Positions 639-33,684 of a stretch of DNA of 33,684 bases are shown here, one piece after another. Source of the DNA: a virus; IMG/VR virus record IMGVR_UViG_3300006192_000019, positions 1 through 33,684 of that record, one strand, 5' to 3'. Each line of letters starts with the position of its first letter. Within the stretch, counting starts at the first letter, position 1. A program made the translations under genes and the position numbers. Below the pieces are notes generated by a model. That model was not told the origin of the DNA, did not search any database, and saw only the letters and a list, made by a program, of their open reading frames with translations.

Positions 639-1103
639 CTATATGAATCCCTTGATACAATCAGGAATCACAGTTTTTATACCAAAATGTTCTAACATCA
701 TCTTATGTGCAAATGCTATTGCATCAATCTCAATCTCCTGCTTTAGATATTCTTTTTCTGGAATGTCTTTTTTTGTAGGCGAGTTATAGTTACTCATTTC
801 ATCTTTCCATTTTTGAATAGTAATTGAATCCTCAACTTCAGTTCCAGAATAATCACCATTTATCACTTTCCATTGAAAAGCATGTCTACTCTCATGGAAA
901 CAAGTAACCTGGATCTCCATTGGATTTGCTTGTTCTATCCACTCTTCATTAAATGCTATGATATATTTTTCCTTTAAGAATATGGAGTTGATTCCTTTTT
1001 CCGTTAAATCTTGGTTATAAAAAAACTGCACGTTAGGAGTTTCTATACCTAGAATCCGTGCAGCTAAAGTAGTCCCATTGATCGCAACTTCGTAGTTATC
1101 CAT
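639..1103 (-). CDS. ImmA/IrrE-like zinc metallopeptidase (154 aa)
   Basis: HESRH at about residues 91-95 fits the HExxH zinc-protease motif, and a downstream EIEIDAIAFA helix could supply the third ligand, as in ImmA/IrrE peptidases. ImmA-type proteases cleave phage or ICE repressors; IrrE-type ones cleave stress repressors. No Xre-type repressor gene lies beside it, so the substrate is unknown. I chose ATG 1103, because GGAGGAG lies 6 bases before it; an in-frame TTG at 1118 overlaps that ribosome site. It is the first gene of a three-gene operon with its own extended -10 promoter, just beyond the recombinase terminator. It could be host sequence or prophage cargo. Confidence 0.7.
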   Translation of the reverse strand: MDNYEVAINGTTLAARILGIETPNVQFFYNQDLTEKGINSIFLKEKYIIAFNEEWIEQANPMEIQVTCFHESRHAFQWKVINGDYSGTEVEDSITIQKWKDEMSNYNSPTKKDIPEKEYLKQEIEIDAIAFAHKMMLEHFGIKTVIPDCIKGFI

Positions 1104-1136
1104 GATGTGCTCCTCCAAGATATTCTCTTAACTAAA

Positions 1137-1165
1137 ATTATAACATATTTTCTTAATTATAAAAA
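1137..1165 (-). promoter_or_regulatory. Promoter of the ImmA/81-aa/DUF262 operon
   Basis: On the minus strand TGTTATAAT gives a perfect -10 with a TGn extension (-10 at 1137-1142). The -35 region around 1160-1165 is T-rich and weak. The site lies 34 bases upstream of the ImmA-like ATG and just past the recombinase terminator, so this operon can be expressed independently. Confidence 0.6.
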
Positions 1166-1168
1166 TAC

Positions 1169-1195
1169 AAAAAAGCCGCCTTTTTAATAAGCGAC
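1169..1195 (-). terminator. Terminator of the recombinase operon
   Basis: Directly after the stop of the second recombinase, the minus strand reads GTCGCTT, a short A-rich loop, AAGGCGGC (one bulge and one G-U pair), then TTTTTTG. This is a rho-independent terminator shape. Confidence 0.65.
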
Positions 1196-2779
1196 TTAAC
1201 TCGTTTTAATTGTTACACCACTATGAAACTTAAACGTGATACTTTGATTTCTATGTACAACTGCACTTTCCACCATAAGCATCCATATTCGTTCATTCCA
1301 ATCAACTAGTTCGTCTTCTGATTCTATTAAATTGTTGATGAACGTTTGCATCGTTTTCTTTTGTCCTAATTTAGACTCTTTTTCAGTGATTAACCCATCT
1401 AAATAATCCTTTAATTTATCATAACGAGCCGACAACTTTTCATATTTCTTGTTATAGGCATCAATGTCCGTGTCTGTCTTAGAATTTTCCATTACCAGTT
1501 TATTAACGAGTTCTGTAATTACTACCATCTCATCATCTATTTTGGTAATTTCTGAATCAATCTTGGTAGTATCCGTCAGTAGTTTAATAATGTCTTTAGT
1601 ATCTTTTATGACTCGTTGTTTGTCTTTGGCCATTAGATTGTATGCTTTAATAAACTGTCTCTTAATGTCATCTTCATTGAGGTGTGGTGTTTTACATTTA
1701 TCTTTTCCTTTGTGAAACTTACTATTACATTGATACACAAATCGTTCATATTTAGTATTCGTGTGCCATTTCTTCTTCCCATAGAAACTCCCGCAATCTT
1801 CACATATAAGCTTTGATGCAAAAACATCAGATGAAGAGTAATGTGCACCAAGCTTATTACGTCGTTCAATTTCAATTTGAACTTGCTCCCATGTATCTCT
1901 ATCGATAATGGCTGGATGATTGTTTTCTACATAGTACTGTGGTATCTGTCCTGTATTAATTGCTTTGGAGTGATCTAGATAATTTACTGTGTATGTTTTT
2001 TGAAGTAGTGCATCACCTTTATACTTTTCATTAGTAAGAATCGATGTCACCACATTTGTTTGCCATTTCGTTGATTTACCACTTGGCGTTTTAATATGTT
2101 GTGATTTAAGATACTTTGCTATGCCTGTTGGTGTTTTACCTTCAACAAGAAACATTCGATAAATATCCCTAACGATTACTGCTTGGTCTTCATCAATCAC
2201 AATCTTGTCATCTTCCTTCTTGTATCCGAGAAATCTTTTATATGCAAACGATACTTTACCTTCCTGGAAACCAACTCGTTTTCCCCAAGTTACGTTTTGA
2301 CTAATGGAGCGTGATTCCTCTTGGGCTATTGATGCCATAATGGTTAAGATAAGTTCACTCTTTGGATCCAGTGTCCATAGATTTTCCTTTTCAAAGAAGA
2401 CTTCAATACCTTTTGCTTTAAGTTTACGCACAAATGAGATTGTATCTAGTGTGTTTCTAGCAAAACGTGAGATTGATTTAGTGATGATCAGATTGATTTT
2501 ACCGTTTAGTGCATCTTTAATCATTCTATTAAACTCAGTACGCTTTTTGGTTGTTGTTCCGGATAATCCTTCATCAGCGTAAACTTCGGTATACTCCCAG
2601 TCAGGTTTTTCTTGAATGTATTTTTTATAGAAATTCACCTGAGCCTCGTAACTCGTGTACTGTTCATCGCTGTTTGTTGAAACCCTAGCGTATGCGGCTA
2701 CTTTCTTAACATGATTCGCATGGATAGGCATTTGTGTAATAGGATTAATTGTTGATGGTATGACTGTGACTTTAGGCAT
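1196..2779 (-). CDS. Large serine recombinase, second of a pair (527 aa)
   Basis: The N-terminal resolvase domain contains VAAYARVST with the presumed nucleophile Ser34. It is followed by the Recombinase domain, a zinc ribbon (CEDCG near residue 330, later cysteines at CNSKFHKGKDKC) and a long coiled coil at about residues 400-470, as in phage and ICE large serine integrases. ATG 2779 is chosen because GGAGGTGGAGAAA precedes it; the in-frame ATG at 2794 would contain that ribosome site. The start overlaps the stop of the upstream recombinase (ATGCCTAA), so translation is probably coupled. It likely acts in integration or excision; the partner relationship is inferred from the tandem arrangement. 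Confidence 0.93.
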   Translation of the reverse strand: MPKVTVIPSTINPITQMPIHANHVKKVAAYARVSTNSDEQYTSYEAQVNFYKKYIQEKPDWEYTEVYADEGLSGTTTKKRTEFNRMIKDALNGKINLIITKSISRFARNTLDTISFVRKLKAKGIEVFFEKENLWTLDPKSELILTIMASIAQEESRSISQNVTWGKRVGFQEGKVSFAYKRFLGYKKEDDKIVIDEDQAVIVRDIYRMFLVEGKTPTGIAKYLKSQHIKTPSGKSTKWQTNVVTSILTNEKYKGDALLQKTYTVNYLDHSKAINTGQIPQYYVENNHPAIIDRDTWEQVQIEIERRNKLGAHYSSSDVFASKLICEDCGSFYGKKKWHTNTKYERFVYQCNSKFHKGKDKCKTPHLNEDDIKRQFIKAYNLMAKDKQRVIKDTKDIIKLLTDTTKIDSEITKIDDEMVVITELVNKLVMENSKTDTDIDAYNKKYEKLSARYDKLKDYLDGLITEKESKLGQKKTMQTFINNLIESEDELVDWNERIWMLMVESAVVHRNQSITFKFHSGVTIKTS

Positions 2780-4085
2780 TTTCTCCACCTCCATGATGCT
2801 GTTCTAGTGCTCTTAATCGTGCTTGTTCTTTCATTTCAGGTGTCCAACTCTTACTTCTAGACTTATGTTTCCATCGGTAGTTTAATATCTTCCCGTCTTT
2901 CATATGAAATTCTAACATCCTATTTTCTTGAACGATTATCTTGGTTACCTTTGATTTGAATGTAGCCTCATTATTTTGGTCCATCTCTAAAATGTGATTA
3001 GAAGCTTCAACGATGATGTTGTGTGGGACTAGTTTAGAATCACAAACATCTTGACCTTTACTTGCTGATTTCGAACAAATCCAAATGTCCTTCTTTCTCA
3101 TTTTCTTAGGTGTATAAGTTGAACCACAAATTCCACATTGTATTAATCCATGTAGAAACGTCTTTTTCTTTGGTAGATTAGATTTGTTTTTAATGGCTCG
3201 TTGATGTTTAAGTTTTTGTACTTTGTCGAATAGTTCATTGCTTATGATTGCCTCATGGTTTCCTTTAACCAGATACCGATCCAGTTCTCCTTTATTAATA
3301 ACCTGTTTCTTTGATAAGTGATTATTCAAGTATGTCTTTTGTAATAGTAAATCACCTGTATAATTACGATTTGAGAGAATCTTTATAATCGATGTTGGAC
3401 CCCACTTTTTAGATTCTTTTGGTTTTATACCCTTTGCATCTAGTATTTGACAAATTGCTTCAGCACCATTACCATCAACATATAGTTTGTAGATGAGCTG
3501 CACCAATTCAGCTTCTTTAGGAATCACACGAAACGCCTTATTCTTTAAGTTATACCCAAGAGGCGATCGTCCTCCCCAAATCTCACCTTGCTGAAATTCC
3601 TTCTTAATGCGCCATTTCATATTTTCTGAAACACTTCTTGATTCTTCCTGTGCTACAGATGCCAATAACGTAAGTACCATTTCTCCTTCGCTGCTTATTG
3701 AGTGAATATTCTGTTCTTCAAAAAATACATCAACATTTAGTTTATCAAGTTCTCTTACAGTCTCAAGAAGTGTCATTGTATTTCTTGCAAACCTTGATAT
3801 AGACTTTGTAATAATCATATCAATTTTCCCTGCTTTGGAATCTTCTAATAACTGTTGAAACTCTTCTCTTGAATCTTTGGTTCCTGTGAGAGCTTCATCT
3901 GCATACACGCCAGCAAACTGCCAATCATTATTATCTTGAATCATTTTCTTATAATAATTAATTTGAGCAGATAAGGAATGTAACATTGCATCTTTACCAT
4001 TAGATACTCTCGCATAAGCAGCGACTCTAGTTTTCTTTGGTAATTTGGATAATGCTTCGATTTTGGTTATCTTCTTTTCCTTCAT
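2772..4085 (-). CDS. Large serine recombinase, first of a pair (437 aa)
   Basis: The N-terminus contains RVAAYARVSNGKD, with the presumed catalytic Ser28, then the resolvase core (MIITKSISRFARN), a Recombinase domain and a zinc ribbon starting CGICGSTY. Unlike its neighbour it lacks a long coiled coil after the zinc ribbon and ends with a basic tail, making it about 90 residues shorter. GAGGAGG stands 5 bases before the ATG. The two proteins are alike but clearly diverged, as in the CcrA/CcrB pair of staphylococcal cassettes. Either both are needed for excision, or one is the integrase and the other a second-element relic; the sequence does not decide. Confidence 0.93.
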   Translation of the reverse strand: MKEKKITKIEALSKLPKKTRVAAYARVSNGKDAMLHSLSAQINYYKKMIQDNNDWQFAGVYADEALTGTKDSREEFQQLLEDSKAGKIDMIITKSISRFARNTMTLLETVRELDKLNVDVFFEEQNIHSISSEGEMVLTLLASVAQEESRSVSENMKWRIKKEFQQGEIWGGRSPLGYNLKNKAFRVIPKEAELVQLIYKLYVDGNGAEAICQILDAKGIKPKESKKWGPTSIIKILSNRNYTGDLLLQKTYLNNHLSKKQVINKGELDRYLVKGNHEAIISNELFDKVQKLKHQRAIKNKSNLPKKKTFLHGLIQCGICGSTYTPKKMRKKDIWICSKSASKGQDVCDSKLVPHNIIVEASNHILEMDQNNEATFKSKVTKIIVQENRMLEFHMKDGKILNYRWKHKSRSKSWTPEMKEQARLRALEQHHGGGENA

Positions 4086-4299
4086 CTTTTACCTCCTCTT
4101 TGGTTACACCATATATCACTCTTTTAGGGGGTTTAGTCAAGTTGTTAAGACGATGAATGTTACCTTTATTGATACAATATTTGTCTGCTAAAAATGCTTC
4201 TGCTTTAAGATATTCAGATTTACTCAAAATCGCCTCCTCAAACATTGATTTAACGGGTGTGATGGATAAGTAATACATTTCTAAATTAGATCGATTCAT
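4027..4299 (-). CDS. SHOCT-like small protein of the recombinase operon (90 aa)
   Basis: A helical protein with ILSKSEYLKAEAFLADKYCI at about residues 24-43, matching the pattern of SHOCT-like small proteins that accompany serine recombinases in Firmicutes elements, followed by NIHRLNNL and a charged tail. It starts within the stop region of the zinc-finger gene (AATGAATC) and its 3' end overlaps the first recombinase by 59 bases, so all four genes are tightly coupled. No enzymatic motif is present. A role in recombination control or directionality is a guess from context. Confidence 0.7.
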   Translation of the reverse strand: MNRSNLEMYYLSITPVKSMFEEAILSKSEYLKAEAFLADKYCINKGNIHRLNNLTKPPKRVIYGVTKEEVKDEGKEDNQNRSIIQITKEN

Positions 4300-4552
4300 T
4301 GTGACTTGATCCTTTTCTTTTTACGTTCCACCATTGCCATCTGCATCTATCTGAACAGAATATCTTTTTCTTTTTCCCTTTTACAGACTTCATCTCAAGA
4401 CCACAGTTTTTGCAATAACCAACAAGGCTTTCCTCTTCCATTCTCAAACAAGCATAACGAACAGTATCAACTTTTAGATCCAGCTCATTAGCAATCTTTT
4501 TGTATCCATATCCTTTGTCTCTTAACTCTTTAATTAATGTGTCATTATTCAT
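4286..4552 (-). CDS. HTH plus zinc-finger helper protein of the recombinase operon (88 aa)
   Basis: Residues 5-40 form a helix-turn-helix (ELRDKGYGYKKIANELDLK, then VDTVRYACLR). Residues 47-75 hold a CxxC...CxxxC zinc finger (CKNCG, then CSDRCRWQWW). Such proteins, often labelled sigma-70-like, stand immediately before serine recombinase pairs in Firmicutes phages and conjugative elements. GGAGG lies 9 bases before the ATG, inside the end of the 35-codon gene. It likely binds DNA and may regulate the operon or the recombination reaction; this role is inferred. Confidence 0.78.
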   Translation of the reverse strand: MNNDTLIKELRDKGYGYKKIANELDLKVDTVRYACLRMEEESLVGYCKNCGLEMKSVKGKKKKIFCSDRCRWQWWNVKRKGSSHNESI

Positions 4553-4652
4553 ACGAACTACCTCCTAAATCATAGTCCGCAGAAATCGTGTAAAAGTTCG
4601 GGTCTGTAATAAAAATATTAGTAATATCTGTTTTTCTTATAATTAATTTCAT
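4545..4652 (-). CDS. Small leader gene of the recombinase operon (35 aa)
   Basis: A short open frame starts at ATG 4652 with AAGGAGG eight bases upstream, the best ribosome site in this region. It encodes MKLIIRKTDIT, then TDPNFYTISADYDLGG, and ends SSYE. Its stop TAA overlaps the start of the zinc-finger gene (TATGAATAATGA), and that gene's GGAGG lies within it, so coupling is likely. The product is unrecognised and has no membrane segment. Its 3' half carries one copy of the 47-nt repeat also found near 32.8 kb. It could be a real microprotein or a leader that sets translation of the operon. Confidence 0.6.
   Translation of the reverse strand: MKLIIRKTDITNIFITDPNFYTISADYDLGGSSYE
4561..4607. 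repeat. Bipartite 47-nt repeat, copy A
   Basis: Ungapped match to 32766-32812 in the same orientation: 33 of 47 bases agree. Two conserved blocks, one ending TAGTCCGCA (19/21) and the other AAAAGTTCGGGT (12/12), flank a 10-base block that differs completely. This copy is inside the 35-codon gene. Confidence 0.7.
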
Positions 4653-4715
4653 GTGTGATACCTCCTTCATCAGTTAAATGGCGAGGTATAACACGATTTG
4701 CCAATAAACATTGAA
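4583..4715 (-). promoter_or_regulatory. Putative recombinase-operon promoter with a 9-bp inverted repeat
   Basis: On the minus strand TGTTATAC gives an extended -10-like sequence (4686-4691), with a weak TTCAAT at 4710-4715, 18 bases upstream. AAATCGTGT at 4583-4591 and ACACGATTT at 4691-4699 form a perfect 9-bp inverted repeat; one arm overlaps the spacer and the other lies about 100 bases downstream in the transcript. Binding by a regulator or a recombinase is possible. Confidence 0.35.
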
Positions 4716-4727
4716 AAATATGCAAAT

Positions 4728-4758
4728 AAAAAAAGCCGTACCTTTTTACCAGTACGGC
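4728..4758 (-). terminator. Strong rho-independent terminator after the SSB-like gene
   Basis: The minus strand reads GCCGTAC, loop TGGTAAAAAG, GTACGGC, then seven T. A perfect 7-bp GC-rich stem with a T-run closes the SSB-like unit and insulates it from the recombinase operon. Confidence 0.88.
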
Positions 4759-4776
4759 CAATTTCTAAATCTATGC

Positions 4777-5034
4777 TTATTCTTTTGCGTTAATGAATGT
4801 TACTTTTTCTCCAACAATCCTTAAGATGTTGTCATCAATATAAAGTGATGCTTTAACTCCTATCGTTGAGTTTTCGGAAAGGTACTCCATAACATTTTCC
4901 ATGATGCCATCACTTAAGGTGACAGGAATCAAATCTGAATCCTTTTCATTAGGTCTCTTGATATCGATTGAAACAATACCTGCTAACTTATCGAGTTTCT
5001 TAACTCGTCCTACTAAAATCACTTGATTCAACAT
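4777..5034 (-). CDS. Short SSB-like OB-fold protein (85 aa)
   Basis: The N-terminus MLNQVILVGRVKK matches the start of bacterial single-stranded-DNA-binding proteins, and the ENVMEYLSENSTIGV segment matches the helix-plus-strand region of the OB fold. The protein is only 85 aa against about 110-180 for usual SSBs. It lacks tryptophans and the acidic C-terminal tail that recruits partners. It is monocistronic, with its own promoter (5063-5091) and terminator (4728-4758), and sits between the holin-like genes and the recombinases, far from the replication genes. That layout suggests expression in the lysogen. Function beyond nucleic-acid binding is unknown. Confidence 0.68.
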   Translation of the reverse strand: MLNQVILVGRVKKLDKLAGIVSIDIKRPNEKDSDLIPVTLSDGIMENVMEYLSENSTIGVKASLYIDDNILRIVGEKVTFINAKE

Positions 5035-5062
5035 GCTTTTCCTCCTTGATTTGGTATGTCAC

Positions 5063-5091
5063 ATATTACCTAAATAAAGGCACTATAGCAA
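5063..5091 (-). promoter_or_regulatory. Promoter of the SSB-like gene
   Basis: The minus strand shows TTGCTA (5086-5091), a 17-base spacer and TAATAT (5063-5068), each matching four of six consensus bases. It lies directly after the preceding stop and about 30 bases before the SSB-like ATG, which has its own AAGGAGG. Confidence 0.5.
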
Positions 5092-5094
5092 GTA

Positions 5095-5589
5095 TTATTG
5101 AGCTTTCTTATTGAGCTTTTCAGCAATGATTTTCTCGGCTTCAGATAAGGTTTCTTTACCTTGCATTTTATTACTGAAAGAGATGTAGTCATCGATAATT
5201 GATTCAATTCTAGACTGATTCGTTTCTACAAACTCTACAGCCTTTTCAGTAGATCCTGTAACATTACTTACCCACTCACTAAAACGCGATATAACGGCAA
5301 GTTTCTTCTCATCACCTGCAAGGAAAGCTTCACCCTTTTGTTTGGCAATCTGATTCTTCTCTTCTACAATCATAATAAATTCTTTGATTGTTTTTTGAAC
5401 ACTCTCATCAAACACTACATTAGTTGCCTTGCTGACAAGATCATATACGTTTTCTGCAGTATTCTTCAAATCATCTTTTACTTCTTTGATTACCTCATCC
5501 AATGATTGGTCTTTTCTGAACTTTGATGTTACATAAAGTGCAAGTAGGCCTAGTGATGTGATGAGTAAAATTATCTCAAGTGTTGTCAT
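5095..5589 (-). CDS. Membrane-anchored holin-like protein (164 aa)
   Basis: Residues 4-20 are a single hydrophobic segment (IILLITSLGLLALYV) followed by a basic KFRKD, so the rest is expected in the cytoplasm. The remaining 140 residues are helical and charged. This design resembles LL-H-type phage holins (phage_holin_6_1), although single-segment holins are hard to prove by sequence. It is the last gene of the late operon, overlapping the previous gene by 14 bases, in the position of the lysis cassette. No endolysin accompanies it. A structural membrane-bound role is the alternative. Confidence 0.5.
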   Translation of the reverse strand: MTTLEIILLITSLGLLALYVTSKFRKDQSLDEVIKEVKDDLKNTAENVYDLVSKATNVVFDESVQKTIKEFIMIVEEKNQIAKQKGEAFLAGDEKKLAVISRFSEWVSNVTGSTEKAVEFVETNQSRIESIIDDYISFSNKMQGKETLSEAEKIIAEKLNKKAQ

Positions 5590-5902
5590 TTTCTTTTCCT
5601 CCTATATGTCGATAAATATTAACTTGTGAATCCTCTAATCTAGTTACTCGATGTTCAAGTACATTTACATCCTTCTTTAACGATTTAATGTCCTTTGAAT
5701 GCATTTCCAGAAGGTTGATCATCTTCACATTTTGTTTATCGATTTTTTGTAAGTTTTCCATTATTTCATCGTTCTTTGACTTGTTGTTTTTCTCTTGTCT
5801 GTTGAATTGCTTTATTGTAGTAAGGATAACAACTACCATCGTAACAACCCAGTATATTAAATTTTCCATTCTGAATAGGTTTAAAAGGTTATCCCAGTCC
5901 AC
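5576..5902 (-). CDS. Membrane segment plus coiled-coil protein, holin/XhlA-like (108 aa)
   Basis: A hydrophobic segment at about residues 14-30 (LIYWVVTMVVVILTTI) is followed by a long heptad-rich coiled coil (residues 40-95, ending HRVTRLEDSQ). The layout recalls XhlA-type haemolysin/holin accessory proteins, with order of parts reversed from XhlA. It overlaps the nucleotidyltransferase by 14 bases and the next membrane protein by 14 bases, so the three are co-translated. It probably acts with the 164-aa protein in lysis or membrane anchoring; the assignment is by context. Confidence 0.5.
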   Translation of the reverse strand: MDWDNLLNLFRMENLIYWVVTMVVVILTTIKQFNRQEKNNKSKNDEIMENLQKIDKQNVKMINLLEMHSKDIKSLKKDVNVLEHRVTRLEDSQVNIYRHIGGKENDNT

Positions 5903-21236: not shown

Positions 21237-21521
21237 TTAACTCATTACCAAATTGCCATCTTCATCAAATTGCTGTGACTTTGAGAAACGTTTGTGTTGT
21301 TCGTTATGACACTTCTTACATAACAGTTCTAAGTTCTCTTGATTCAAACTGATCGCTGGATCCTTAACGTTATGTATTGTCAGCTTGATTATGTGATGAA
21401 CTTCTTCTCCAAGAGCAACACACTTCTCACATTTACCATTAGCATCTCTTATCTTAATCTCTCTTGCTACTTGCCATGCTACTGATTTGTAGAATCGATG
21501 TAATTCTTTAGGCTTTCTCAT
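21237..21521 (-). CDS. HNH endonuclease, packaging-associated (94 aa)
   Basis: HNH nuclease: zinc cysteines C31-xx-C34 and C68-xx-C71, catalytic H42-H43 in the VHHI motif, Asn63 in the LNQENLELLC segment and H72/H76 in CHNEQHK. Small HNH proteins next to terminase genes assist the terminase in cos cleavage in HK97-like phages. It starts 14 bases inside the metK stop region (overlap). All HNH residues are present. Confidence 0.92.
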   Translation of the reverse strand: MRKPKELHRFYKSVAWQVAREIKIRDANGKCEKCVALGEEVHHIIKLTIHNVKDPAISLNQENLELLCKKCHNEQHKRFSKSQQFDEDGNLVMS

Positions 21522-22638
21522 ATAGTTTTCTCAATTCTGTGATTTTATCATCAACATGTTCCCATCGAACATCTAAATCTTCTCTACCAAAGTGTCCATA
21601 CTTTGCTAACTCCTGGAACTTGATTTTATCAAGGTTGAGTTCTTTTCTTATACTTTCTGGTCTAAAATCAAATACATAATTCACAAGTGCTTGTATCTCT
21701 TCATCAGATGTTACACCAGTATCAAAGGTATTAACTAAAACACTCACTGGTTTTGCTACGCCAATTGCATAGCTCAAATGAACCTCGCAATGTGTGGCCA
21801 AACCTGCCCCTACAACTGCTTTTGCTACGTATCTGGCATAATAAGCCGCACTGCGATCAACCTTGCTTACGTCCTTGCCAGAAAAGGCTCCTCCGCCATG
21901 TTTTGCGTAGCCACCATAAGTATCAACGATAATCTTTCTTCCTGTTAATCCAGAATCAGCATAAGGACCACCAATCACAAACTCACCTGTAGGATTGATT
22001 AATACTTCTGCATCTATAATCGTATCGAAATCAAATACTTTGGTTAGGACTTCATTGATAATGATATCCTCATATAACTCTCGATTTACTCCCTCTTTTG
22101 TTTGAGCTGATACTACAATGGTTTGTACTTTCTTAGGTCTTCCGTTTTCATAGCCAACAGACACCTGACATTTACCATCTGGTTCAAAGATGTGCGAGTA
22201 TTTCTCTTTGCGAATTTTATCCATCTCTTTTGAGATTTGGTTTGCTAACATGATTGGTAACGGCATAAATTCTTGTGTTTCATTACAAGCATAACCAAAC
22301 ATGATCCCTTGATCGCCTGCGCCTTGCTCATGTGACTCGGTTGAATTCACACCAAGAGCAATATCAGCTGATTGTTTAGATATCTTTTCCATTACTACAA
22401 ATTCATCTTCATAACCTATCTCTATGAGTTTTTGTTTTGCTATATTTGCATAGTCTACTTTCACAGTTGTAGTTACTTCACCAAAGACAAACACTAAATC
22501 ATCCTTGATTGCTGTTTCTACTGCTACTCGAGCGTTTTTATCTTGTTCTAAAATTGCATCTAATATGGCATCACTGATTTGGTCACAGACCTTATCCGGA
22601 TGTCCACTAAATACGGATTCACTTGTTATTACTTGCAT
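21508..22638 (-). CDS. metK: S-adenosylmethionine synthetase (376 aa)
   Basis: Makes S-adenosylmethionine from methionine and ATP. GHPDKVCDQISDAILD stands near the N-terminus (methionine/ATP site), GAGDQGIMFGYA near residue 110 and GGGAFSGKDVSKVDRS near 250, the P-loop-like signature. Full length for the family (about 380). Start ATG 22638 has AAAGGAG upstream; the frame continues earlier to 22740 but runs through a terminator hairpin. It is near a DNA methyltransferase, the likely consumer of its product. A short terminator just upstream suggests reduced or separately controlled expression. Confidence 0.95.
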   Translation of the reverse strand: MQVITSESVFSGHPDKVCDQISDAILDAILEQDKNARVAVETAIKDDLVFVFGEVTTTVKVDYANIAKQKLIEIGYEDEFVVMEKISKQSADIALGVNSTESHEQGAGDQGIMFGYACNETQEFMPLPIMLANQISKEMDKIRKEKYSHIFEPDGKCQVSVGYENGRPKKVQTIVVSAQTKEGVNRELYEDIIINEVLTKVFDFDTIIDAEVLINPTGEFVIGGPYADSGLTGRKIIVDTYGGYAKHGGGAFSGKDVSKVDRSAAYYARYVAKAVVGAGLATHCEVHLSYAIGVAKPVSVLVNTFDTGVTSDEEIQALVNYVFDFRPESIRKELNLDKIKFQELAKYGHFGREDLDVRWEHVDDKITELRKLYEKA

Positions 22639-22663
22639 TACTTCATCTCCTTTATCAACTAGT

Positions 22664-22683
22664 AAAAAAGGAGCTTTCGCTCC
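22664..22683 (-). terminator. Short terminator/attenuator before metK
   Basis: The minus strand reads GGAGC, GAAA tetraloop, GCTCC, then six T, between the papain-like gene stop and the metK ribosome site. The 5-bp stem is short, so read-through may be partial. Confidence 0.6.
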
Positions 22684-22688
22684 AGTTG

Positions 22689-23066
22689 TTATTTTGTTAT
22701 CTCCCATGCTGTGTAAACTGATCGGTATGAACAATCCCAAGTATCAAGAATTACTCCATCTACACAAGCTGTAATATGTCCAGCCATTTTTAAGATGTAA
22801 GTACCCTTTGGATGCAACTCTGTAAAGTCACTACCTTTAATTCTTGGTTCTCCTTTGATTGCTTTGAAAATCAGTCTAGGATAATCCTTCAAATAATCGT
22901 ATAAAAACTTCGTGACTTTGTAACTTGTATATCCGAGTTCTCGTTTCTTGCGATTCAATTCTCTACGGCACTCTAGGTAATCAGTGTCTGTCGCTGTTGC
23001 GATTGCTCGAACAACACAATCTGATGTTTTGATTCCTTTTGGATGTACGTTAAATTCCTTAAACAT
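22689..23066 (-). CDS. Papain-like cysteine protease-fold phage protein (125 aa)
   Basis: TSDCVVRAIATATD at residues 14-27 offers a conserved Cys17 at the start of a helix; GTYILKMAGHITACVDG near 88-104 offers a His, and VILDTWDCS an Asp. This is the C-H-D order of papain-like or transglutaminase-like folds, and I remember similar phage proteins annotated hypothetical (pattern GTYIvrmaxHl...DTWDcs). AAAGGAGG is 6 bases before the ATG. Whether it is active, and on what substrate, is not known. It lies between methyltransferase and metK genes. Confidence 0.6.
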   Translation of the reverse strand: MFKEFNVHPKGIKTSDCVVRAIATATDTDYLECRRELNRKKRELGYTSYKVTKFLYDYLKDYPRLIFKAIKGEPRIKGSDFTELHPKGTYILKMAGHITACVDGVILDTWDCSYRSVYTAWEITK

Positions 23067-23136: not shown

Positions 23137-24348
23137 CTATAGTGACTTATTTTCAAAATAATCGAAATCGCTAAGTGGAGACCTTTTTCCATCTCTGATC
23201 AAATAGCAATCTTTATTCGTTCCTTTATGTTTGATATAACGTTTTACAGTCACATCAATAAACTTCTCATCAAGTTCCATTAAGAATGATTTACGATCCA
23301 GTTGATCAGCTGCAATCATCGTTGAACCAGAGCCACCAAATAGATCCAATATGGATTCATGACGTCTTGAGGAATTACTGATTGCTTTTCCTACAAGTTC
23401 AAGAGGTTTCATAGTTGGATGTTCTTCATTCTTTCGAGGCTTGTTATATTCCCAAATAGTATCTTGAGAACGATCATCTACAAAATAATGAGCTGCTCCC
23501 TCTTTCCATCCATACAGAATCGGTTCATGTCTCCAGTGATAATCTTGTCTACCAAGTACCAAAGCATTCTTAACCCAAATCAAACATTCAGCAAGTTTAT
23601 ATCCAGCATTCTTGAATGCATTTCTAAAGTTGAGTCCTTCTGTATCTGCATGGCAACAATATATCGCTCCACCAGGCTTTGTATGTTCAAACATATTCTT
23701 GAACGCATCCAATAAAAAAAGATAGAAAGTGTCATCTTCCATCTTATCATTTTTAATCTTTCCAGCCGTTCCTTCATAATCAACATTATATGGAGGATCG
23801 GTAAAAATCATATCTACTTCTTTTCCATCAACCAATATTTTTACTTGCTCACTATCAGTGGAATCTCCACACATTAATCGATGAGGTCCTAGCTCATAAA
23901 TGTCTCCTGGTTGTGAGAATGGTACTTCAGGGATTTCATCATCAACATCAAAATCATCATCAGCTGCATTCTCGGGAAGCAGTTCTTCCATTTCCTCAAA
24001 CCCAAACTGTAGCATATCCATATCTAGGTTTGCTAGTTCATCTTCTAACTTCGATAAATCCCATGTAGCAAGTTCAGCTGTTTTGTTATCGGCTAAGCGA
24101 AATGCTTTGATTTGTTCGTCGTTTAAATCGTCTGCGATAATACATGGCACTTCTTCTAAACCAAGCGATACAGAGGCTTTTAATCGGGTATGTCCGGCTA
24201 TAATGACGTTATCACTGGTAATAACAATCGGAACTTTAAATCCGAACTCTCTGATTGAATTAGCAACCGCCTTGATTGCCTCATCGTTGTTTCTTGGATT
24301 GTTTTCGTACTCTTGGAGTGTTGATACTGATTTCATCACTATATTCAT
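23137..24348 (-). CDS. ParB-domain DNA methyltransferase, N6-adenine/N4-cytosine type (403 aa)
   Basis: The N-terminal ParB/sulfiredoxin-like domain has NNPRNND and AGHTRLKA (about 52-59). The C-terminal methyltransferase has DPPY at 184-187 before FGGSGST at 337-343, the order of beta-class enzymes, plus HPTMKPLELV. It transfers a methyl group from S-adenosylmethionine to adenine N6 or cytosine N4. ATG 24348 is preferred, with GAGGAGG nine bases before; longer frames reach 24366. No restriction partner is next to it, so it is probably an orphan modification enzyme that protects phage DNA or marks it for packaging. Confidence 0.92.
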   Translation of the reverse strand: MNIVMKSVSTLQEYENNPRNNDEAIKAVANSIREFGFKVPIVITSDNVIIAGHTRLKASVSLGLEEVPCIIADDLNDEQIKAFRLADNKTAELATWDLSKLEDELANLDMDMLQFGFEEMEELLPENAADDDFDVDDEIPEVPFSQPGDIYELGPHRLMCGDSTDSEQVKILVDGKEVDMIFTDPPYNVDYEGTAGKIKNDKMEDDTFYLFLLDAFKNMFEHTKPGGAIYCCHADTEGLNFRNAFKNAGYKLAECLIWVKNALVLGRQDYHWRHEPILYGWKEGAAHYFVDDRSQDTIWEYNKPRKNEEHPTMKPLELVGKAISNSSRRHESILDLFGGSGSTMIAADQLDRKSFLMELDEKFIDVTVKRYIKHKGTNKDCYLIRDGKRSPLSDFDYFENKSL

Positions 24349-24808
24349 TCGTCCAAACCTCCTCACCTTTTTCTAGGCGTTTCTCCATTAGTTCTATTTC
24401 TACTTTCTTTTCGTTGTATTCGATACCAAACTTCGTAATCAACAAATACTTTATTGCTTGAATATCAGGTAACGATTGCTTCTTGTATTTTGTGATCCGT
24501 TTCTTCGTACCTGTTTTTGTTTCCTCGATTACTGTTTGTGTCTCTTCATATTCAAAACCGATCGCTCGTTGATAGATAGCATCAACTAACTTCAGTTTTA
24601 GTTCTTCATCACCAAACTGAAACGCATCGTCTAGTCGTTTATGTGCTTTACGTAACTTGATGACTGTTTTTTCTGTGATACCCAAATACTCAGCGACTTG
24701 TTTTTGAGTTGCTCTTTTGGATACCATTTCCGATATTGCTTTTAATTTGTTCTCTAAATGTCCAGATTTCTCCCAACGCTCATACGTGTCAAGCATCTTT
24801 CCTTTCAT
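24281..24808 (-). CDS. HTH protein resembling a terminase small subunit (175 aa)
   Basis: Residues 32-58 form a helix-turn-helix (KRATQKQVAEYLGI, TEKTVIKLRKAH). After that ELKLKLVDAIYQRAIGFEYEE and later QSLPDIQAIKYLLITKFG match a pattern common in small terminase subunits and related phage DNA-binding proteins. A separate P27-like subunit lies beside terL, so this one may be a second packaging factor or a regulator. It is the first gene of the late operon; GGAG of its ribosome site lies within an operator-like inverted repeat, so it may bind its own promoter. Confidence 0.65.
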   Translation of the reverse strand: MKGKMLDTYERWEKSGHLENKLKAISEMVSKRATQKQVAEYLGITEKTVIKLRKAHKRLDDAFQFGDEELKLKLVDAIYQRAIGFEYEETQTVIEETKTGTKKRITKYKKQSLPDIQAIKYLLITKFGIEYNEKKVEIELMEKRLEKGEEVWTNEYSDEISINTPRVRKQSKKQR

Positions 24809-25285: not shown

Positions 25286-25699
25286 TTAAGGTAGTTCAAT
25301 CTGCAGTAATGCTTTGTCATGCCATCTTCTTATTGTAGCTGATGAAAAGAACATTCTATCAGCAATTTGTCTCCAGCTTAGCCAATCAATATACCTATGA
25401 ACTAATATCAATCGGTAATCTTTGTCTTCAATTTGCTCTATGGCTTGAAGTACTTCTTTCTTGTAACAGGGCAACAATCGTTTCATTTCTTTGATCTCGA
25501 GTTCGTAATCGAGAGTCTTAAGTATCCACTTCTCGAATGGAGCTTTTAGATTCTTACCACCATCAACTCGAATTGCATCAAATTTAATTCCTGGTATCTC
25601 ATTAGCCAAACGAATATATTCATCCACTAAAGCTTGTAGTTTTTGAATCTTCACTTTTGTATTATGATATCGGCTTAGGTATTCTTTCACATCGTTCAT
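25286..25699 (-). CDS. ArpU/DUF1492-like late transcription regulator (137 aa)
   Basis: A coiled N-terminal half (KVKIQKLQALVDEYIRLANE) and a C-terminal sigma-70 region-4-like HTH (LILVHRYIDWLSWRQIADRM, SSATIRRWHDKAL), the pattern of ArpU/DUF1492/RinA-type regulators that start late transcription in Gram-positive phages. It is the last early gene, overlapping rusA by four bases, and lies just before the late promoter. Regulation of the head and tail operon is inferred from this position. Confidence 0.78.
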   Translation of the reverse strand: MNDVKEYLSRYHNTKVKIQKLQALVDEYIRLANEIPGIKFDAIRVDGGKNLKAPFEKWILKTLDYELEIKEMKRLLPCYKKEVLQAIEQIEDKDYRLILVHRYIDWLSWRQIADRMFFSSATIRRWHDKALLQIELP

Positions 25700-30383: not shown

Positions 30384-31352
30384 TTATTGTTCTCCTTTTT
30401 CATTTTTTATCGTTTCTACAATCTTCTTCCAATTCGGGATAATCCAGCGTGTAATGAAATCATCTGAATATTCACTGATAGGTGTTTCTAGTTCATAGTG
30501 TCCTTTTGCGGCTACTACTTTTTGCAACTGTTCTTCTGTAATGTCATCTTCTACAATTTTCTTCTTCAACTGTTCAACGAATGCTAAGGTTGTTACATCT
30601 TTTGAATCGTAGTCCATCACTTGTTCAGCTGGTACATCATACGTTTCAAATAGGTGTGCAATCGCTTTGAAATCAAGTTCTAGTTCTTCAGGTAAATCGA
30701 ATCTGTTCTTTGCATCGTAAGTTGGATTATGTGTGGTATATAGAACACGTTTGCCACCTTGTGCTTTTTTCTTATTGGTATCAGTTGTGACGACATAGAT
30801 CTTGTAGTTCACAAAGAATAATGCGTCACTCCATTCTTTAATAAGTGGTGCTACTTGTCTTGATAGTTTCATCTCGTATCGATCGAATGATCCTTGTTCT
30901 TCTGGCAACTCGAATTTTCGTGGTTTGGCATGTGCTGTAATCACGACATTGATACCCACTTCGATTAACTGGTCAAGCAGTGATAACAGTCTTGCATACT
31001 CATCAACTAAGTAGACATAGCCTTTGCCGTATCCGAAGTCTTCGATATTGTTTTTACGATACTTTTCACATACAGCATTCGTACATAACGTTTCCGACCA
31101 GTCAGCTGTATCAAGTACGACTGTCTTACAAATATGTGGATTCGCATGGATCTCTTTTACTATTGTGATTAGTTCATTCCATGATTTGTTACATTTGATT
31201 CTTCTTACATCTAAATTACTTGTTCCACCCTCTGTATCAAGAAATAATGGTTCTGGAAATTGACTAGCGAATGTGGACTTCCCGATTCCTTCCGGTCCAT
31301 AGATGACGATTTTCTTAGGGCGTTGTTCTTTTCCTTCAATAATATTCAACAT
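30384..31352 (-). CDS. Sak4-like RecA-fold ATPase, annealing/recombination protein (322 aa)
   Basis: Walker A GPEGIGKS at 19-26 follows a KKIVIY strand, then FLDTEGGTSNLDV; later VVLDTADW (Walker B-like) and INVVITAHAKPRKFE. This is the AAA_24/Sak4 group of single-strand annealing proteins. The operon neighbours (DUF2800 nuclease upstream, DUF669 downstream) make a nuclease-annealer-SSB set for phage recombination. The gene is separated from DUF2800 by a single base, so coupling is expected. Confidence 0.85.
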   Translation of the reverse strand: MLNIIEGKEQRPKKIVIYGPEGIGKSTFASQFPEPLFLDTEGGTSNLDVRRIKCNKSWNELITIVKEIHANPHICKTVVLDTADWSETLCTNAVCEKYRKNNIEDFGYGKGYVYLVDEYARLLSLLDQLIEVGINVVITAHAKPRKFELPEEQGSFDRYEMKLSRQVAPLIKEWSDALFFVNYKIYVVTTDTNKKKAQGGKRVLYTTHNPTYDAKNRFDLPEELELDFKAIAHLFETYDVPAEQVMDYDSKDVTTLAFVEQLKKKIVEDDITEEQLQKVVAAKGHYELETPISEYSDDFITRWIIPNWKKIVETIKNEKGEQ

Positions 31353-31353
31353 T

Positions 31354-32535
31354 TTATTTTTCTCCTTTTTCTATTGTTATTACCTCTTCACGAGGATCTG
31401 TGTTTGGTACTAGAATCATTGAACCTGTTTGCATTGTGATATATGGTCCGATAATGCTAGTAACTTTGTCTTTACCGATTCGTTTGGTCAGTTCAGTAAT
31501 GCCTGCAACTTTCTGTGCTGTGTATGGATTAATTCCTACTTCTTCACAAGCCTTAATCAATCCTGGTTCATCTGTAATCTTTCTTGAAACTCGAGCGTGA
31601 ACCAATTTATAATCAGGCCACTTATATCCACGCTTTGCTTTCTTTAGTGCGTAAGATTTGATGTCTTCAGCAAACTGGATCATTTCATCTAGTTTAGGTA
31701 GTAAAGATTCAATATCACTATCTGTAAGTTGAGCGATAGATTTGTTAGAATTACTGAATGTTTCCATCATGGCATTCGCTCTAACTGCACACGTTTCTCT
31801 ACCGGAACAATAACGACAATGTTTACCTGGATTTCCATGTGGCGTCTCTACTCTTGTACTCAATACTGCTGGGATTAATACTTCTGATTCAAACTTCAAT
31901 AAATCATCAATCGACATTTCGTAATCATTCGTGTTATTGATGACAGGTTGGTAAATTGCAAGTCGTATGTGTTTCACTGGGTATAGATCCTTGTATGCCT
32001 TGTAAAAGTAAAGAGCATAGATAGCAAGTTGTGTATTAAAAGTTCCAGCTTCATGATCAAATGCATACACCGGTGAGCGTCCTGTCTTTAAATCAATAAC
32101 TGTGAGCGTCCCACCATCCACACCGGAGATAATGCCACAGTCTAACGTTCCTCTTGCATCTTCATCAAAATCCATATCCAGCAACTGTTCGATAACAACA
32201 AATGGTTCTGTTTCAGATCGCTTTTTCTCATATTCAATGGTGTTAACAATGTAATCTGCATATCCATCAGCAATGTCCTGCATTTCATCTGAATACATAT
32301 CGAGTTCTTTGATTAGTTCATCGATTGGTTTTACTTCACTGTCATAATCAACTAGACCTAATGACTTACTAACAAGTGCTGCACCTAGCTCATGACATTG
32401 CGTACCAAACTCTGCTTGTGGACTCGACTCTTGGTTTGAACCATCATTGAATACAGTGCTTAATGGACAATTTAACCAGATACTACTTTTACTTGGACTA
32501 TACTTTCTACTGTGAATTGTTGGACTTCTTGACAT
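31354..32535 (-). CDS. DUF2800 protein, PD-(D/E)XK exonuclease-like (393 aa)
   Basis: RecB/Cas4-like nuclease fold: His at FGTQCHELG (residue 48), GTLDCG (129-134), VIDLKTG (146-152; D and K of the active site) and a C-terminal cysteine cluster HCRYCSGRETC that could bind an iron-sulfur cluster, as in Cas4/AddB. It likely resects double-strand ends for the Sak4 annealer. ATG 32535 is chosen after AGGTAGGTGAAAAAA; a GTG at 32544 would leave too little space for the ribosome site. It overlaps the 75-aa gene by 29 bases. Confidence 0.85.
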   Translation of the reverse strand: MSRSPTIHSRKYSPSKSSIWLNCPLSTVFNDGSNQESSPQAEFGTQCHELGAALVSKSLGLVDYDSEVKPIDELIKELDMYSDEMQDIADGYADYIVNTIEYEKKRSETEPFVVIEQLLDMDFDEDARGTLDCGIISGVDGGTLTVIDLKTGRSPVYAFDHEAGTFNTQLAIYALYFYKAYKDLYPVKHIRLAIYQPVINNTNDYEMSIDDLLKFESEVLIPAVLSTRVETPHGNPGKHCRYCSGRETCAVRANAMMETFSNSNKSIAQLTDSDIESLLPKLDEMIQFAEDIKSYALKKAKRGYKWPDYKLVHARVSRKITDEPGLIKACEEVGINPYTAQKVAGITELTKRIGKDKVTSIIGPYITMQTGSMILVPNTDPREEVITIEKGEK

Positions 32536-32734
32536 TTTTTTCACCTACCTCTTCATAAATTTCAATGCCTGTTACCGAATCACTTGGTGCAATGATCAAG
32601 ACTCGTTTTTTCTTACCAAATAACTTATTGAATAGTTTCTTTGGAAGTGTCTCATCCATTGTCTCGATGATGTTGGTATTCCTACTCCTTTTGTCCGCTA
32701 AGTTAATGCGAACCCTATGCTTTTTGTCTTGCAT
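32507..32734 (-). CDS. Small basic protein of unknown function (75 aa)
   Basis: The protein starts MQDKKHRVRINLADKRSRN and is strongly charged, with KKLFNKLFGKKKRVLIIA in the middle. GAGG lies six bases before the ATG. I do not recognise it. A short hairpin (TAGAAG/CTTCTA, 32749-32771) precedes the ribosome site. The frame remains open upstream through the repeat copy B, without a start codon. It may be a nucleic-acid-binding accessory of the recombination set. Confidence 0.6.
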   Translation of the reverse strand: MQDKKHRVRINLADKRSRNTNIIETMDETLPKKLFNKLFGKKKRVLIIAPSDSVTGIEIYEEVGEKNVKKSNNSQ

Positions 32735-32765: not shown

Positions 32766-32812
32766 CCTTCTAAATCTTAGTCCGCATTTTCATCTCAAAA
32801 GTTCGGGTTGGT
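32766..32812. repeat. Bipartite 47-nt repeat, copy B
   Basis: Partner of 4561-4607, same orientation. The conserved blocks again flank a wholly different 10-base block. This copy spans the stop of the sigma-like gene and the gap before the 75-aa gene, so at least half is noncoding here, unlike copy A. Confidence 0.7.
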
Positions 32813-33422
32813 TTGAAAAATGTTCAATTATTTTTTTCTCAAGTGTTTTTACACGTTCTGATACTGTGCTTTTTGATATACCTAATATCGAGCTAACATC
32901 TGATTGTTTTAGTTCTTGAATATAGATAAGGTCAAACATCTCTTGCATGGTAGATGGTAATGTAGCAACAAACTCTTTGATGATCTCGAGTTTTTCATAA
33001 TTATCATTAGAATTGATTTGCTCTGAGTAAATAGAAGCTTGATACAACAGGCTGCTTTTATCGTCCTGTGAATTTTCATCACCATTAAATGCATTAAGAT
33101 TCATGATTCTTGGTGGTTTGTCATATGGATTAACTTCTTCAGGATGTTCTTTCGCCCACTTCTTTTTATTTGCTATGCGTGTTTGTCGCTCTGTATTTGT
33201 TTCACAGTTGATGTATTTAAGGTTTGATCTTACTTCAGCATCATCTTGTCTATGAAGTTCGGTAATTGTTATTTCAGTGATAGACTCATCGACTAGAATG
33301 GATCTATCACCGGATGCATGAATTGTTGTTGATTTACCAGGTTCAAGGATGACCTTATCTCCATTAGCAAAAAAATAGGTGTATGTCGTTCTTTTCGAAG
33401 TTGGTGTTTTACGTAATTTCAT
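32790..33422 (-). CDS. Sigma-70-like HTH regulator (210 aa)
   Basis: The C-terminal HTH, about residues 160-205 (QELKQSDVSSILGISKSTVS, then ERVKTLEKKI), is like sigma-70 region 4; the N-terminal 100 residues are beta-rich (FFANGDKVILEPGKSTTIH) and hold a charged linker (KKKWAKEHPEEVNPYD). Proteins of this kind begin early operons in Firmicutes phages and mobile elements. It is the first gene visible in the early operon. The ribosome site GGAGG is inside a hairpin that can be masked, with an upstream alternative partner, so translation is likely regulated. Confidence 0.78.
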   Translation of the reverse strand: MKLRKTPTSKRTTYTYFFANGDKVILEPGKSTTIHASGDRSILVDESITEITITELHRQDDAEVRSNLKYINCETNTERQTRIANKKKWAKEHPEEVNPYDKPPRIMNLNAFNGDENSQDDKSSLLYQASIYSEQINSNDNYEKLEIIKEFVATLPSTMQEMFDLIYIQELKQSDVSSILGISKSTVSERVKTLEKKIIEHFSNQPELLR

Positions 33423-33429
33423 AAAAAAA

Positions 33430-33466
33430 TACCTCCAAATCAGATTTTTATTCTGAAATGGAGGTA
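33430..33466 (-). promoter_or_regulatory. Hairpin masking the Shine-Dalgarno of the sigma-like gene
   Basis: The minus strand pairs TACCTCCA with TGGAGGTA (8 bp) and, inside a symmetrical 2-base internal loop, TCAGA with TCTGA (5 bp), loop of 7 bases. GGAGG, nine bases before the ATG, is in the 3' arm and would be inaccessible in this fold. It could also act as a DNA operator. Confidence 0.75.
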
Positions 33467-33486
33467 CTCTTCTCGTATATTGTAGT

Positions 33487-33566
33487 CAGTTCAGTGGCGT
33501 AGTAAAGAGAACGGATATGTACATCCATTTCAATTTACAGGCCACTCTTCACATTAGAATGAACTG
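33487..33566 (-). promoter_or_regulatory. Nested-stem leader RNA upstream of the sigma-like gene
   Basis: Four nested pairings on the minus strand: CAGTTCA/TGAACTG (33560-33566 with 33487-33493), GTGGC/GCCAC (33541-33545 with 33494-33498), GTAAA/TTTAC (33534-33538 with 33502-33506) and the hairpin AATGGAT/ATCCGTT with one G-U pair. The terminal hairpin holds a segment (33519-33530) complementary in 11 of 12 positions to the anti-Shine-Dalgarno arm at 33456-33467. No coding frame was found here. I see no known riboswitch class. Confidence 0.5.
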
Positions 33567-33684
33567 TACTATTTAATTGATTTGCACTTCAATGTGATCA
33601 GCTGAGCAAAGGCTGTGAAGTACTGGCTAGGTTAGCTAAATCCTAATTCGATACTAGTATAAATGTTCTACACGATTAATAACA

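Follow-up and report, generated by a model that had tools for sequence, protein, structure and literature searches.

The leader RNA of a sigma-region-4-like gene in the window (the whole stretch of 33,684 nucleotides analysed in this work, IMG/VR virus record IMGVR_UViG_3300006192_000019) is best read as a divergent DUF2800-type cis-regulatory RNA comprising a sensor, a mimic of the SD arm and one switching arm, a reading to which we assign a probability of about 0.72. At its tip, hairpin P3 of the sensor would display a sequence that nearly copies the SD arm, and a single anti-SD arm would choose between this copy and the SD arm itself. An earlier note on the same DNA had placed a riboswitch-like element at 33423-33570. 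This range is too short, as a second domain with P1, P1b and one strand of a pseudoknot lies upstream and extends the element to 33626. Besides this P1 domain and the pseudoknot, the earlier note overlooked the likeness to the Rfam family RF02960 (DUF2800 RNA) and the possibility that the hairpin and the U-tract behind it terminate transcription.

Architecture of the leader and its three arms

The minus-strand leader (33626-33423) is located 5' of the gene for the 210-aa protein and has a minimum-energy fold of -59.2 kcal/mol, as compared with -32.7 +/- 3.8 kcal/mol for shuffled sequences (z -6.9), none of 200 shuffles being as good. The homologues speak for a fold of two domains that includes a pseudoknot. 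Domain 1 (33584-33623, minus strand), predicted from the fold, consists of P1 (33623-33617 with 33590-33584), which encloses P1b (33615-33612 with 33602-33599); in the homologue alignment compensatory changes occur at 7/7 pairs of P1 and 4/4 pairs of P1b, with 98.6% and 97.3% of the cells paired, respectively. Domain 2 (33487-33566, minus strand), delimited by the fold and by pair counts in homologues, is built from the nested P2 stems (33566-33561 with 33492-33487, 33546-33541 with 33498-33493 and 33538-33534 with 33506-33502), which are 73-98% paired depending on the helix, and ends in the hairpin P3 (33509-33531, minus strand), the lower helix of which is 92% paired in homologues. The pseudoknot is formed by UCACAUU (33591-33597, minus strand) and AAUGUGA (33549-33555, minus strand). 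It is 92.3% paired versus 27-50% in slid controls (0/500 shuffles), with compensatory changes at five of seven pairs, figures that come from a column test on an alignment not fitted to the pseudoknot, which is also absent from the covariance model. The two-domain pseudoknotted sensor would span 33623-33487. Altogether, 23 of 36 pairs show compensatory changes and 88.9% of the cells are paired, compared with 33-45% in slid controls; these controls carry more weight than the 88.9% because the alignment was fitted to the structure. The upstream arm is very probably transcribed since it resides inside a domain in which compensatory changes preserve the helices; promoter scans revealed nothing clear.

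The anti-SD or switching arm GUACCUCCAUUUCAGA (33452-33467, minus strand) and the SD arm UCUGAUUUGGAGGUA (33430-33444, minus strand) follow downstream. Paired as GTACCTCCATTTCAGA (33467-33452) and TCTGATTTGGAGGTA (33444-33430), they yield the 13-bp hairpin of the earlier note at the place given there, composed of 8 + 5 bp with two U-U mismatches and burying GGAGG (33436-33432), which at equilibrium is unpaired with a probability of about 0. In homologues, aligned without reference to structure, this helix is 89.7% paired versus 33-49% when slid (0/500). Seven U (33423-33429, minus strand) separate the hairpin from the ATG (33422), and a run of usually six to nine U, with minor interruptions, follows the hairpin in all leaders of the clade, where it is at the same time the spacer to the start codon. 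The succession of 13 bp and U7 was read by eye; a strict terminator pattern scan makes no call, probably because it misses the hairpin on account of the U-U mismatches. Judged from the sequence, hairpin and U-tract could also terminate transcription in this clade. The more distant leaders L031, L032, L034 and L077 lack the U-tract, so that SD masking would be the output common to all, and termination would be confined to part of the family.

The third arm is the mimic UUGAAAUGGAUGUAC (33519-33533, minus strand), situated at the apex of P3 and the alternative partner of the anti-SD arm. The proposed pairing of 33456-33467 with 33519-33530 at 11 of 12 positions was recovered and grows to 14 of 15, one of them G-U, when extended to 33533 with 33453; that the mimic is locked in the hairpin at the end of the nested stems holds for the minimum-energy and the centroid fold alike. 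Among 300 shuffled upstream sequences none contained a segment that pairs as well to the arm, and in 20/20 distinct leaders the P3 apex is the upstream segment that pairs best with the arm. Cognate mimic and arm pair at -14.8 kcal/mol versus -10.8 kcal/mol for permuted combinations, none of 20,000 permutations being as good (p <= 5e-5, a value that ignores the relatedness of the leaders and includes segments of L031, L034, L044 and L049 that were placed by hand). In homologues, again aligned without structure, mimic and arm are 83.7% paired versus 34-52% when slid. Covariation between the two is modest inside the close clade (five pairs, eight cells), where several pairs fail in some members. 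In L059 the mimic CUGAUAUG and the arm CAUAUCAG have changed together and the SD arm keeps CUGAUUUGG, in L044 all three arms have changed together (AUGGAAGU with ACUUCCAU), and the divergent L031, L033, L034 and L077 possess quite different triplets that keep the relation; a search for the mimic in L032 yielded none that is clear. The earlier note would have abandoned its proposal had the three arms failed to covary. All three are conserved and covary in the homologues, and the three-arm switch is well supported.

Homologous leaders and the operon behind them

A covariance model built from four leaders detects this RNA in another 24 or so phage contigs (E 1e-4 to 1e-37), nearly always about 1 kb upstream of a DUF2800 gene and ahead of the gene that opens a DUF2800/Sak4 recombination operon. 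In the window, this first gene (32790-33422, minus strand) encodes the 210-aa protein, whose C-terminal end bears a sigma-70 region 4-like HTH recognized by Pfam Sigma70_r4_2 (1.8e-6, passing the curated cut-off) and by PHROG sigma-factor families; its designation as sigma-like holds for region 4 only. The third gene (31354-32544, minus strand) specifies a DUF2800 protein, a PD-(D/E)XK nuclease (Pfam DUF2800, 9.6e-81) of the family from which RF02960 takes its name, and is followed by the gene for a Sak4-like annealing protein (30384-31352, minus strand; PHROG 124, 1.5e-66; AAA_24). The host group of the phage is mollicute-like bacteria. One relative sits in the 2.2 Mb genome of Tenericutes bacterium MO-XQ and is therefore a prophage. 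Annotated phages gave no DNA match to the window, and the one distant protein match among them, NatCom_43819 (30%), has a leader matched neither by the DUF2800 RNA nor by the R2 model. Nor was such an RNA found near the DUF2800 gene in phages of Streptococcus, Paenibacillus and Staphylococcus that encode a DUF2800 protein. Gut phages of Oscillospirales and Acutalibacteraceae share this type of operon and have different leaders (L090, 2101-2510; L091, 1921-2095), in which a strong GACGGCC-type hairpin is combined with a T-run; another kind of control RNA may occupy this site there.

At least three kinds of first gene, encoding proteins of 210, 194 and 130 aa, are found behind the homologous RNA. 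Sigma region 4 is supported by Pfam for the 210-aa type, and the other two types have weaker HTH or sigma-family matches. The distant leaders L031, L033 and L034, found by RF02960, and L077, found by the R2 model, each precede a gene that by visual inspection is of the HTH type. The presence of a DNA-binding-type regulator behind the RNA in the cases examined is what would be expected for autogenous control in phage early operons, and the sensor might accordingly bind a protein, be it the sigma-like product or another protein of phage or host, and act through the same three arms. We consider such protein-dependent control unlikely, though worth keeping in view; the product as ligand is difficult to reconcile with the finding that operons behind this RNA begin with at least three quite different proteins.

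Several further features of these genomes deserve mention. The window contains a complete three-domain S-adenosylmethionine synthetase gene (21508-22740) near a ParB/DNA-methylase fusion (23137-24366), a pair unusual for a phage. A second sigma-region-4/DUF1492-like protein (25286-25699), perhaps a late regulator, adjoins RusA at the opposite end of the replication genes. Divergent from the leader, L005 carries a match to an ABC-3C three-component system (2371-5647; CTD6, MC2, AAA) where L011 has three other genes (878-3645), and this position may be a variable cargo site. In the prophage L011 the reading frame of the gene extends without a stop across most of the leader (3791-4633; 280-aa ORF from TTG), so that automatic annotation would misplace the gene start.

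Relation to the DUF2800 RNA

At gathering scores Rfam gave no match in the window. A permissive search aligned RF02960 with 33623-33480 at 18.8 bits; the Rfam match envisaged earlier thus exists from end to end but does not reach the gathering score of 60.2. The model is aligned in full (1-158, both domains) in the window and in L003, L005, L006 and L054, the five records in which the best RF02960 match falls on the leader, with scores (18.4, 23, 17.5 and 27.6 bits, respectively, for the latter four) that are all below 60.2. A scan of six other loci with E up to 1 returned a single match across all families, namely RF02960 on the leader of L054, and in the 2.2 Mb genome of Tenericutes bacterium MO-XQ the leader is the top match. 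In the RF02960 consensus, the loop GCUCAA of the P1 domain is complementary to the bulge UUGAGC of domain 2, and the equivalent strands covary here. Two-domain layout, linker, position of the pseudoknot, the motif UGCAA...GAAAYGGAG with GAAAYGGAG in the terminal hairpin, and the operon with the DUF2800 gene are common to both RNAs. The leader studied here differs from RF02960 in its low score, in preceding a sigma-like gene with DUF2800 in third place, in an SD hairpin and arm that lie downstream of the Rfam model, and in the putative U-tract terminator of this clade. The R2 model gives no match on L031-L034, whereas L077 is matched by R2 and not by Rfam. An exact DNA motif derived from the RF02960 consensus matched no viral contig.

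The leader could also be an unrelated structured RNA that merely resembles RF02960, as all scores are below gathering and RF02960 also has chance matches of 25-28 bits at other places (L029, L088 and L089), which were discarded because a supporting context was missing. We judge this improbable in view of the five records in which the best match coincides with the leader, its top rank in a 2.2 Mb genome, and the shared pseudoknot position, linker, motif and operon. On sequence grounds, the leader is probably a divergent member of the DUF2800 RNA kind; membership is termed probable rather than proven because the cut-off is not attained and no sequence cleanly bridges both models. The family was reportedly described by Weinberg and colleagues in NAR in 2017. 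In the open-access literature searched no paper on the function of DUF2800 RNA was found.

Switching model and what the sensor may recognize

From the three arms we infer switching in vivo and the direction of the response. In the OFF state the sensor, stabilized by a signal, would be folded, P3 would hold the mimic and the arm would pair with GGAGG, thereby masking the SD; in this clade the U-tract after the hairpin should add termination of transcription. In the ON state P3 would be open and the mimic would capture the arm, leaving GGAGG free for translation of the sigma-region-4-like first gene. The folded sensor is most likely OFF because P3 and the pairing of mimic and arm exclude each other. 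As long as the transcript ends at the arm, there is little difference in energy between the two states in the window, the sensor at -43.3 kcal/mol and the captured state at -40.4 kcal/mol when nested or -48.9 kcal/mol as an unpenalized pseudoknot. Once the SD arm has been made, OFF is favoured over the nested ON state by 5-27 kcal/mol. The hairpin of arm and SD is strong enough to hold the gene off regardless, so that ON is reached only through a kinetic or active step. On these modelled energies the choice would have to precede the appearance of the SD arm, or something would have to hold the captured state, which fits a co-transcriptional decision.

It might be argued that the hairpin is a plain SD-masking device or attenuator, thermometer-like or providing constitutive low expression, with an incidental likeness of the P3 apex: arm and SD arm alone account for masking, and GGAGG is virtually never unpaired at equilibrium. 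We judge this improbable too, since such a hairpin explains neither the best-partner rule in 20/20 leaders nor the coordinated changes nor the cognate preference, and would not need a covarying 140-nt sensor with a pseudoknot. Attenuation by a leader peptide, in which ribosome movement along a short ORF that begins at an AUG in P3 (33528-33448, 26 codons) would govern the hairpin, is very improbable and was rejected: an AUG is present in P3 of most leaders and the ORF of the window stops in the hairpin loop, but the ORF varies from 3 to 36 codons and is sometimes in frame with the gene, in the clade no SD precedes it, the peptide is not conserved beyond close relatives and the AUG is missing in L065 and L033. 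T-box and leader-peptide attenuators share with the RNA studied here a choice between antiterminator and terminator; they differ in that no T-box covariance model of Rfam matches here even at E up to 10 and in that a conserved leader peptide is lacking here.

Riboswitches with SD-sequestering or terminator expression platforms are an established general class. Like them, the DUF2800-type switch proposed here combines an aptamer-like upstream domain with mutually exclusive helices and one switching arm; it differs in that what competes with the SD arm is a sequence closely resembling it, carried by the apex of a hairpin of the sensor itself, and in that its ligand is hypothetical. The riboswitch-like layout claimed by the earlier note stands as far as sequence and energy reach, which yield mutually exclusive helices linking the sensor to SD and terminator, while the strict sense of the term, the sensing of a small molecule, goes beyond that support. 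Only tentatively do we put forward a phage-borne riboswitch class in which the SD arm is copied in the hairpin of the aptamer itself and binding of a host or phage metabolite directly decides the synthesis of the regulator at the head of the operon. Phage-encoded RNA switches that gate a replication/recombination operon are little described in the literature searched. DUF2800 RNA is a catalogued orphan, and the leader analysed here, with a concrete proposed mechanism, about 25 phage homologues and a predicted switching arm, suggests how that family probably works. If the riboswitch reading is true, the same logic would apply to DUF2800 RNAs in general.
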